Source of the DNA: Ischnura elegans
Taxonomy: Eukaryota > Arthropoda > Insecta > Odonata > Coenagrionidae
Assembly: GCF_921293095.1 (NCBI RefSeq)
Contig: NC_060253.1
Location: forward strand, 95,621,073-95,685,072
DNA: 64,000 bases
Direction: 5' to 3'
This document shows positions 25,950-50,283 of this stretch, in pieces. Both the position numbers and the translations under genes were made by a program. The notes beneath the pieces are model-generated. The model saw only the letters and a list, made by a program, of their open reading frames with translations, did no database searches and was not told where the DNA came from. The first letter of the stretch is position 1, and each line of letters starts with the position of its first letter.

Positions 25950-26586
25950 CAGTGGCGTAACTACGGGGAGGGGGGGGGGGGATGAGGGTATATATCCCCC
26001 CCAAAGCCTCGTTGAAATAGAAAAGTAATTATAACTCAAACTTTATACTTCACGACCCCTCATTATATATATATATTTTTTTTATATCACGAGATGTGGG
26101 TCAAATGTAAATATTATTTATTTTTTCAAACTTTGCCTACGTTTCGGACATTATATTTGTCCATCCTCAGGGCTTTAAGTCTGATGTTGTTTTTATTTAT
26201 TTACAATTACATAAATAAATATATAAATTATAAATAATAATAAAATTAAATAATATTAATTGTAAATAAATAAAAACAACATCAGACTTAAAGCCCTGAG
26301 GATGGACAAATATAATGTCCGAAACGTAGGCAAAGTTTGAAAAAATAAATAATATTTACATTTGACCCACATCTCGTGATATAAAAAAAAATATATATAT
26401 ATATATAAGTAATTATAACTATTATCTTGTTTTGACGTACAATAACTGCATCTGCTTAAAGTCAAATCTTTAGTGCCAAAATGATGTAAAATGTATATCT
26501 AGGCATGTCATTTTCCAAAAATTTTCGGGTGGGGGGTTGCCAGGCCATCCCATCCCTCCCAAATCATATTCCTAGTTACCCCACTG
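25950..26586. mobile_element. hAT-like MITE, CAGTGGCGTAACTACGG end, containing a large palindrome
   Basis: The left end CAGTGGCGTAACTACGGGG is mirrored by cctagttaccccactg at the right. The flanks attcaaac (25942-25949) and attcgcac (26587-26594) agree at six of eight. A G-run and ccccccc lie inside the left end and gggtgggggg inside the right. The 134-bp inverted repeat at 26076-26390 sits within it, and the word agtaattataact flanks that palindrome region on both sides (26024 and 26408), suggesting later insertion or local duplication. Confidence 0.8.
26076..26390. repeat. Perfect 134-bp inverted repeat with hammerhead-like motif in each arm
   Basis: Arms 26076-26209 and 26257-26390 are exact reverse complements by my reading, with a 47-base AT-only-rich spacer. 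The match decays in (AT)n tracts outside. On the + strand the right arm has CTGAGGA (26296-26302), GGAC/GTCC (26304-26307, 26317-26320) and GAAAC (26321-26325). The left arm has the same on the minus strand. This order matches the CUGANGA-stem II-GAAA half of the hammerhead ribozyme core. Perfect identity implies recent origin or gene conversion between arms. Confidence 0.9.
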
Positions 26587-27905
26587 ATTCGCACTATCTC
26601 CTATGTTATTGATAGGTGATGACAGGACTATTATTGGTCCGATTGTGGTCATGAAGAATACTACTTAAAAATATTTCCCAGCTATTTTGGCAGGTATGGA
26701 CGCCCATTTTTCTTGTACTGTAGCCGTTCCCAATCGGACGGGCTTCAAAATTCACCCGAATGTGGGGCGAAATAAGCATCGTGTGTGAATCAGCCGCGGA
26801 CTTAGGTTTGAATCAGGTGTATGAATGCTCTCACAACCATTTACTTTATTTCCTCCATCCCTTGTATCCCCTCGACTGTTTAGACGAGTGCTCTACCTCC
26901 CGTCTCACCGCGGTGAGACAATTTATATGTATTATGGGCCGTATTTATATGTATAGTGGGTGCCTTCTAGCGACAGAATCCTTCCACAAGTCTTCCAAGT
27001 ACGAATACGGTATTTATAGGGCCGTATTTATAGTCGTTTCCACGGTAGACTTCCACAAGTCTTCCATCCAGAAGGCTTCTAGACGACTTCTTTAACCCAT
27101 GAACTTAGTAAAATACAAATGAATGCTGCAAGATTCGCCAAAAACTGCTACGGACGATCAAAATCAAACCTTCACTGAGCTTTCTTCGATTGAGACTAAG
27201 AAAAAAAATGGAGACAGTTTTTTAAACCTTGTTAAGTGCAGTTAACGTAAATATTTTGAAATATTGAATGGAGAAGTGAAAAAATGGCTAGCTCTGCGTT
27301 TATGTACGTAGGCATTTTTTTAATAAACGGTGGGAAAAAGTTAAGACATTTGAATAGCCAAGCATCGCGAAATTTCGTGTGCATGGGCTCTCTCTCCAAA
27401 GCTTCCACTGTGCGGATTCAATGAGTGCCGCTGCGACCATTTGCGATGTCCAGTTTTGCATTAGTTTTATCGTCACGGCTCGTGTCCTGTCCAACCCACA
27501 GGTAACGGAGAGCCCCCTCATAACTTCTAGAAAAATTAGAAAGATGGTGGTCTTAAAGGTGGCTCTGCTATGAAAGGTTTTATTTCTTTAGCAGGGGGAA
27601 AAATGTTTAACAACTATGGATGAATGTCTAAAAGCCATTTGTCAACGCAGATCCCACCTCAGACGAATTATCGACGATAGGTATTGAATTCTGTCAAGAC
27701 GCTGAGGAAAGTAATGAACCCCCCAAAACTACGGCTTAAATCCGCCCCTCACGGGTTGTCGCGGCAAGTATACGAATTGGATTGCAGCCGCATGTACTCC
27801 TAGGTATGAATTTTTGCGGTACATACTTGAAAATAACCAGTAGTATTTTGAGTAGGTTGATAACTGAGAAAATAATCTATTTTATGTGTCGGGTCGAGGT
27901 ACAGG
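26587..27905. other. Unassigned DNA with a small tandem duplication
   Basis: No gene recognised. At 26936-27072 the words gggccgtatttata (26936, 27019) and cttccacaagtcttcca (26981, 27050) occur twice in the same order, an imperfect two-unit duplication of about 70-83 bases. Confidence 0.5.
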
Positions 27906-39084: not shown

Positions 39085-39556
39085 AAAGGAAGTGTAGGGG
39101 AAGACGGGTGGAGAGAAACCTGTCGTCGGCATTACCATGCTCTTTACGAAAGACGGCAAGGGGACCGGGGCTTAACGTCCCATCGGACGGACGGAGTGCT
39201 GGGCATGAAGTGCACGCATTAAGCATTCAAGCAAGGATCAGGCAGACTTTGAAAAGTCTCCACGACCTCTGGGATTAGAAACCGGGCCCTCAGGATGGGA
39301 AGCCAGCACTATAGCCGCCACACCAACCCGAACCTGCCGGATTTCCGGGCTATCGGTTTCCCGAGTTTGCGGGACCACTACTGTACAGAGCACTGCATGA
39401 AACAAATGAGTTTGTACACAGTGAAGCGCACGAGCGCAAATATACAACAAGGTGAAGCTCGCCATGCAAAAATATTTTGCTTTGCTGGAATTCGAACCCG
39501 GATATCCTGATTGTCGGTTAGGCGTGCTAGCCAATTACACCACCAAGCCATCTTCT
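39085..39556 (-). mobile_element. Tandem tRNA-derived SINE remains
   Basis: On the minus strand, ggtggtgtaattggctagca (box A) and ccgggttcgaattcc (box B) lie at about 39480-39556. A second head follows, tggtgtggcggctatagtgc and ccggtttctaatccc, at about 39265-39340. The body then contains acgtcccatcggacgg-type words read on the + strand near 39175, and ggtggagagaaacctg at 39108. The last two words also occur in the repeat near 54340-54600. These are overlapping or adjacent SINE copies with approximate borders. Confidence 0.65.
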
Positions 39557-47422: not shown

Positions 47423-47494
47423 GCCTCGGTAGCTTAACTGGCTAAAGCACTCGACCGTAAATCGGGGGATCCGGGTTCGTATCCCGGCCGACTC
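47423..47494 (+). pseudogene. tRNA-like cloverleaf, GTA anticodon position (SINE head or tRNA pseudogene)
   Basis: The 72 bases fold as acceptor gcctcgg/ccgactc (five of seven pairs), D-arm gctt/aagc, anticodon stem ctcga/tcggg with loop ccgtaaa, and T-arm ccggg/cccgg with loop ttcgtat. The anticodon would be GTA (Tyr), but position 33 is C rather than the universal T, and the acceptor has mismatches. The usual tRNA-Tyr intron is absent. Box B is intact. A tRNA-derived SINE head is the likelier reading. Confidence 0.6.
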
Positions 47495-47711
47495 TATTGT
47501 AATATTAGTGGGCGAAATGCTGAAATGCGTTTGTTTTCCGTTGTTTTTCCTATCGCAGTTCATATTTCAATTAGACCGTGCGCCGCCACGTCACGACGGC
47601 GGCGCCGAGTCTGCCGAACATAAAATCTTAGGTTTCCCAGAATATACTTTATACTTGGATGCATGCTTAATTTTTAGTCTCTTTATTCATTATTATCACT
47701 GGTCAAAAATC

Positions 47712-50051: not shown

Positions 50052-50283
50052 GCAAACTTCCACTCAATAAATTAATACTTTATACTCAACATGTTTCATT
50101 GCATAGCAGTATCATAAGAACTGAATAGATAGTTACCTTAGTTAGAAGGGTTTGCTTAGGTTTATCCGAGGGTGGTTAACCAAAAACAATCACTCCTAAC
50201 AACAATGAGTACTGATGAAGCTTCAGCGCAGTGAAACATGTTGACTAGAATAAATTATTAATATATTGAAAGGAAGTTTGCAT
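50052..50283. repeat. Diverged inverted repeat with a hammerhead-like motif
   Basis: The left arm (about 50052-50116: gcaaacttcc, tcaata, tcaacatgtttcattgc) pairs with the right arm (about 50211-50283), whose reverse complement has gcaaacttcc, tcaata, tcaacatgtttcactgc. The right arm holds CTGATGA (50212-50218) and GAAAC (50233-50237) with a weak stem between. The spacer is about 95 bases. The layout is like that at 26076-26390 but much older. Confidence 0.65.

Follow-up and report, generated by a model that had tools for sequence, protein, structure and literature searches.

Introduction

Canonical Penelope-like elements (PLEs), in the descriptions cited here, combine a reverse transcriptase (RT) and a GIY-YIG domain with pLTRs, a tail, a hammerhead and AT-rich targets (PMC11167929, PMC3846280), and PLE hammerheads, inverted pLTRs, tails and intron retention are already known. 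The sections of PMC7761336 that concern PLE hammerheads describe them as having no helix III and possibly acting as dimers. A 2013 study of rotifer Penelope elements describes the tail as an optional feature of one of the inverted pLTRs, and it prefers antisense self-priming without dismissing copying from unspliced sense RNA (PMC3846280). For Poseidon, a PLE of the green anole, in vitro work published in 2024 found that both strands are extended by the lizard protein, which initiates at two neighbouring sites delimiting the tail and shows no strand difference in start site, and that the hammerhead cleaves only with protein and is dispensable for insertion in vitro as far as its cleavage is concerned; later insertion steps were left unvalidated (PMC11167929).

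Here we describe an insertion in the window, a 64,000-nucleotide stretch of Ischnura elegans DNA, together with its relatives in the same genome. Like the GIY-YIG PLEs in the parts of PMC3846280 and PMC11167929 cited, its family has an RT with a C-terminal GIY-YIG domain in coding relatives, pLTRs with a hammerhead, inverted pLTRs, a one-sided tail (optional in those elements), AT-rich targets, target duplications and retained introns. Unlike them, the window copy has no ORF and is a dimer of spliced leaders, the tail is near-obligatory with one per insertion, and the intron abuts the hammerhead core. The family resembles Poseidon in having a hammerhead at the leader/ORF boundary and, on the model proposed below, in the two adjacent start sites around the tail, with both target strands extended in vitro in the lizard system; the Poseidon ORF, however, begins in stem II and contains the start sites, whereas here the hammerhead and the start sites come before the annotated ORF start (PMC11167929). 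Animal retrozymes (PMC7229834) are likewise short repeats with a hammerhead motif and a dependence on other elements, but they are tandem, with type I hammerheads and circular RNA, whilst the window copy is a single inverted dimer without tandem hammerhead repeats. As a works-like comparison only, in the part of PMC4509934 that describes the SOLE of oskar mRNA splicing also assembles an RNA stem from two exons, although the SOLE is a localisation signal and not a ribozyme.

Results

The window contains a perfect inverted repeat with two arms of 134 nt that are 100% complementary (re-checked for equality) and lie 47 nt apart (Table 1), which is beyond chance. The original prediction gave its coordinates as 26076..26390, which was right for the arms and too narrow for the element, since the insertion runs from 26037 to 26406 between 14-bp exact direct repeats. 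CTGAGGA, GGAC/GTCC and GAAAC were found in both arms as previously described, and the core pattern CTGANGAN{8,26}GAAAC matched at 26296-26325 (+) and 26141-26170 (-), with one unrelated match at 50212, giving three matches in the window against 0.73 expected (0/100 shuffles reach three). The repeat is a recent inverted dimer, as predicted, but the unit read as a tail is, rather than a 3' end, the 5' leader of a PLE transcript in spliced form, each arm comprising the end of the upstream ORF, the exon junction, the hammerhead and the 5' UTR up to the start of reverse transcription. Folding into one long hairpin, which the arms would do as RNA, is a property of any inverted repeat and not special here. 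An Rfam scan of the long palindrome gave mainly microRNA precursor models below their gathering scores, which we read as an effect of long inverted repeats. Elsewhere in the window there is a tRNA-Tyr gene at 47423-47495 (Rfam and ARAGORN) and a second, weaker tRNA match at 39477-39549 (Rfam only).

Table 1. Features of the insertion and of its host element, in window coordinates.
Feature	Position	Strand	Basis
Host element, MITE-like and older than the insertion that splits it; ends CAGTGGCGTAACTA / TAGTTACCCCACTG	25950..26590	.	39 other places span the joined site
Target site duplication, left copy (AAGTAATTATAACT)	26023..26036	.	14-bp exact direct repeat
PLE tail, reading out of the left arm; at this end only	26037..26065	-	tail on one end in 40/43 family loci
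TA tract, left arm to tail	26066..26075	.	sequence; present there in relatives too
Left arm, spliced PLE leader, outward-reading	26076..26209	-	
Left-arm hammerhead motif with stem I; predicted cut 26138/26137	26127..26183	-	core 26141-26170; fold
AT-rich 47-nt spacer, meeting point of the two 5' ends	26210..26256	.	relatives vary in length and sequence
Right arm, spliced PLE leader, outward-reading	26257..26390	+	
Right-arm hammerhead motif; predicted cut 26328/26329	26283..26339	+	core 26296-26325; fold
Exon-exon junction, site of the 99-bp intron in longer copies	26293..26294	+	L028, L029
TA tract beyond the right arm; tailless outer end	26391..26406	.	
Target site duplication, right copy	26407..26420	.	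14-bp exact direct repeat

The insertion had been placed inside an older MITE, and this was confirmed: the joined flanks with one copy of the duplication matched 39 other places at 77-84% identity, 39/39 across the insertion point, when the best 40 of 3017 candidates were scored. With 3017 first-look candidates the host MITE-like element is itself high-copy. The right flank of locus L061 starts with letters also present in the host MITE, and a second MITE copy may therefore carry a PLE insertion.

The arm sequence is repeated in the genome (1.72 Gb, 110 contigs), with the window-family core pattern at 405 places and none for the reversed control. A short ORF adjoining one of the arms led, through a protein search, to L028, a pLTR-ORF-pLTR element in direct order, whose annotated ORF starts downstream of both hammerhead and start sites, and to L029, two near-full-length copies head to head with the target duplication ACATTCCTTAAT, one tail and an ORF of 843 aa. 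Pieces of the L029 ORF and of its relatives matched RVT_1 (5e-10 and 2.2e-8) and GIY-YIG (1.8e-6 and 5.4e-6), all passing the Pfam cut-offs, in agreement with the proposed Penelope-like origin; the whole L029 protein matched no Pfam family at 0.01 (one weak unrelated match at 10) and gave no convincing match among solved structures. RT and GIY-YIG are thus found in one ORF in the relatives and not in the window copy, whilst the short target duplication and 30-40-bp tail of PLEs are represented in the window itself (14 bp; tail 26037-26065). Many loci besides L029 have the pLTRs inverted.

In L041 and at C12:21342443-21350811 a PLE ORF start fused to a hammerhead is repeated with a period of ~440 bp (19 matches in the protein search; 436 nt between two cores of L041), resembling a retrozyme-like tandem array and lying nearer the retrozyme form than the window copy does. 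L020 (C8:115653500-115663400) is nested, with several spliced leader arms by PLE ORF starts in direct and inverted order.

The two arms contain CUGAGGA, GAAAC and the triplet GUA, and so the CUGANGA...GAAA core and NUH triplet of a hammerhead. In the plus arm GGAC pairs with GUCC as stem II, with CUGAGGA and GAAAC in position, and stem I can form between CAGACUU (26283-26289) and AAGUUUG (26333-26339), plus GCC with GGC; in its spliced form stem I is better than 99.5% of shuffles in the window family. No clear stem III or cleavage triplet had been recognised before: the triplet can now be placed, at a predicted cleavage site GUA/GGC, along with stem I, whilst stem III consists only of a self-complementary ACGU after GAAA, there is no intramolecular stem III of several base pairs, and a longer one would require two molecules.

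Rfam hammerhead models gave no match, either at gathering or at E<=10, to the window, the region or one arm, and among six related loci Hammerhead_3 matched the motif in one, weakly (17.5 bits, E 7.3; gathering 48.5). According to the original prediction the hammerhead was to be given up if such a hit was missing and the core was also free to vary; the hit is missing, but stem II covaries and the core is kept in most loci fetched independently of it, so the core is not free to vary. Since the pattern searches fix the core, their counts (5994 and 1304 genome places for two wider patterns, 0 reversed) are silent on core constraint, and its sole measure is a set of 14 loci fetched by ORF homology: nine of the 14 keep the whole core, and five (L030, L031, L037, L038 and L039) are without it in the ~1 kb fetched. 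For stem II we used 55 distinct 40-nt relatives, picked from the wider-pattern matches listed, in which stem II was 85.5% paired and 44 double-change cells were counted against 14.1 in shuffles, with a covariation score of 0.567 against 0.245 (0/500 shuffles) and at most 0.142 when slid. In the same 55 relatives, pairs with a double change (5 vs 4.4) and further pair types (15 vs 13.4) did not exceed the shuffles. As judged from sequence, the hammerhead is real in form, its stem II covaries and its cleavage is predicted only. Two independent insertions, L005 and L006, have a common difference between arms at the predicted cleavage site, GTT in the arm with the tail and GTA in the other; this is suggestive only and may reflect the joint use of two RNA variants.

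A GT..AG intron lies between CAGACTTAAAG and CCCTGAGGATGG in L028 and L029 and ends two bases before the core; its length in the fetched loci was 99 bp in 23/25 complete cases and 98 bp in 2/25. The window arms are without the 99-bp intron, which is exactly removed, so that spliced sense RNA was copied; the spliced arms must derive from sense RNA. Exact patterns counted genome-wide gave 64 spliced junctions against 295 unspliced (intron ends) and none reversed. Some spliced subtypes have an unspliced counterpart that is identical over the compared stretch of exon 2 (e.g. L014/L060 and L007/L045), and intron loss has therefore recurred. Family B has the donor CACAG/GTATG and acceptor TTAAG/AGCC in L086, its short copies L075-L077 reading CACAGAGCCCTGAGG, and a comparable junction was seen on comparing L036 and L084 with L072. 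Where both arms of a dimer could be typed, with three errors tolerated, 16 pairs were spliced/spliced, 17 unspliced/unspliced and none mixed (33 pairs). L048, considered as a mixed dimer, was rejected as such since the 3' end of the intron is present in the arm concerned, which is unspliced with an internal deletion.

In order to compare spliced and unspliced leaders we folded them with the core held in hammerhead form and compared each with 400 single-letter shuffles of the upstream sequence. In the window family the spliced leader folded 7.2 kcal/mol better than the unspliced, equalled by 0.5% of shuffled upstreams, and in a second subtype of this family the gain was 5.9 kcal/mol (0.7% of shuffles). 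Values were 6.2 kcal/mol (5.8%) in family C, 3.4 kcal/mol (28.5%, not significant) in family B, and 16.5% of shuffles in family D, which has a common exon 1 with family C and was folded in the spliced form only. Constrained folds of the unspliced leaders were no better than shuffles. Splicing is therefore predicted to add an outer stem I, clearly in the window family and suggestively in families C and D, whilst in B this was not demonstrable; an inner stem I would be possible in both RNAs, as ...AG of either intron or exon plus CC would give GCC.

The tail was present on exactly one end in 40 of the 43 family loci, on neither in three (L018, L021, L048) and on both in none (binomial p 3e-9 against one half). 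These 43 comprise the window, L028, L029, 20 regions chosen from among the best matches, and 20 inverted pairs out of the 28 that occur among the first 100 of the 405 places. In L012 and L017 a bare tail forms the tail end, for L046 we placed the left arm end manually, the two copies of one dimer in L008 were counted once, and L020 is the nested locus. Amongst 18 inverted dimers of other families, taken from the matches listed, 17 had one tail and L072 was ambiguous, one arm having diverged; in 12 of the 18 a single tail is confirmed by the target duplications, which place one end at -7 to +2 and the opposite one 26-40 nt beyond it. Neighbouring cores up to 5 kb apart were oriented (-,+) in 50 cases, (-,-) in five, (+,+) in two and (+,-) in none among the matches listed (three partial listings of 100, 100 and 81 places). 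A clear target duplication of 12-14 bp was seen in 30 of the 37 rows (rows omitted from the tally: L008, L010, L020, L049, L055, L058 and L062), and when these 30 sites are oriented so that the tail is on the right, the tail end tends towards AA(C)/ATTA.

Arm ends, counted from the core C, fell at -124 to -139 in 30/30 arms of the 15 spliced dimers, whereas the 36 ends of 18 unspliced dimers scattered from -5 to -2942, with one in this zone, and the unspliced arms within one dimer stop at different points. Six spliced loci have a single core: L016, L018, L023 and L017 end in the zone, L015 at -145 and L012 at about -157, and in all six the opposite end is a partner arm or a bare tail. This zone of exon 1 is probably the RNA 5' end, or cap site. 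In the 15 spliced dimers the inner ends differed by a mean of 2.0 nt, against 5.2 nt when re-paired (p = 5e-5), which is soft evidence because spacerless palindromes agree by construction. In 25 of 34 arm pairs there was no difference in the compared stretch, with a mean of 0.56 differences within and 3.73 between dimers; in a comparison looking for two source RNAs, the differences found were mostly private to one arm. L019 and L056 have no spacer between the arms, and some dimer centres are close to perfect palindromes. No scored arm end stopped exactly at the ribozyme cut site, as would be expected if cut RNA were the template. In L022, a spliced dimer, the arms are ~400 nt apart and the spacer is unlike the PLE reference used, possibly being captured sequence.

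Discussion

The reading that we favour, and consider probable, is that the window contains a young, non-autonomous PLE insertion of two spliced 5' leaders head to head, and that reverse transcription was primed from each of the two target strands, at a different RNA site for each. The dimer most likely formed during integration. The endonuclease would make a staggered cut of 12-14 bp in the target, in an order of cutting that is presumed; the 3' end of one target strand would prime reverse transcription at the far end of the tail, and that of the other strand ~35 nt nearer the RNA 5' end, within the (UA)n tract. Both cDNAs would extend toward the RNA 5' end, those on spliced RNA usually stopping in the narrow exon 1 zone and those on unspliced RNA at scattered points, and the two cDNA ends would then be joined with or without filler. 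One end with a tail and one with (TA)n fit two initiations, one per target strand, and we also count in favour of dual priming the RVT_1 and GIY-YIG domains of the relatives, the outward-reading arms, the 12-14-bp duplications, the exact removal of the intron and the unequal ends of unspliced arms within a dimer, as well as the extension of both strands, from two adjacent starts, by the lizard protein (PMC11167929). Against it we count the mostly private arm differences, which fall short of showing two separate RNAs, the 3/43 loci without a tail, the 7/37 rows without a clean duplication and the in vitro finding that start sites did not differ between strands (PMC11167929); a separate start site for each end is a further step beyond the lizard PLE data.

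The common splice state and near-identity of the two arms indicate that their templates came from one locus or one molecule. Dual priming might use a single RNA molecule, each target strand starting at one of its two start sites, and one tail per insertion would then be automatic; the shared splice state (16 + 17 pairs, 0 mixed among 33) and the agreement of inner ends in the spliced dimers fit as well. The cDNA begun at the tail should, however, be the shorter, yet in the 18 unspliced dimers it was shorter in 10, longer in seven and equal in one, and sister RNAs from one locus would have a common splice state too, so that we regard the single-molecule version as rather unlikely. Self-priming, in which the end of a cDNA or antisense transcript would fold back and be extended along its own strand to give an inverted dimer, would account for the near-identical arms and almost perfectly palindromic centres, but fold-back predicts equal outer ends and is already hard to square with a tail on one end only in 40/43 loci; splicing of the arms implies a sense template, no spacer is available for a loop in L019 and L056, and we judge this route improbable. 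The inverted ends and target duplications would also suit a DNA transposon or MITE whose terminal inverted repeats resemble hammerheads, were it not that the tail makes the two ends unequal, so that the repeats are not symmetric, and that the inner ends of unspliced arms scatter; exact intron loss, together with relatives coding for RT and GIY-YIG and not transposase, excludes it for practical purposes. We attach just as negligible a probability to a fold-back join made in assembly, since perfect palindromes can arise from library or assembly errors but the same architecture recurs here at many loci with differing target duplications and centres. Taken together, the single tail per insertion, the spliced leaders and the unequal lengths of unspliced arms favour templates of sense RNA, with both target strands acting as primers at two start sites.

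A second, much more tentative proposal is that the PLE hammerhead is gated by splicing, its outer stem I forming only once exon 1 joins the core. If the predicted cleavage takes place, it would fall between cap and ORF and strip spliced mRNA of its leader, whilst unspliced RNA would stay whole and serve as the full-length template. We think this unlikely as it stands, and arms with a whole core, having been copied from RNA uncut at the ribozyme site, argue against strict gating. The openly licensed literature that we searched contained no statement of splicing completing a PLE hammerhead or of an intron abutting a hammerhead core, and no count of one tail per insertion.

The window family bears on the insertion route of PLEs and on the reason for their kept introns, and the thousands of hammerhead-core copies in the genome are a record of the insertion reaction. 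If splicing does complete the ribozyme, intron retention in PLEs would gain a concrete, testable cause.
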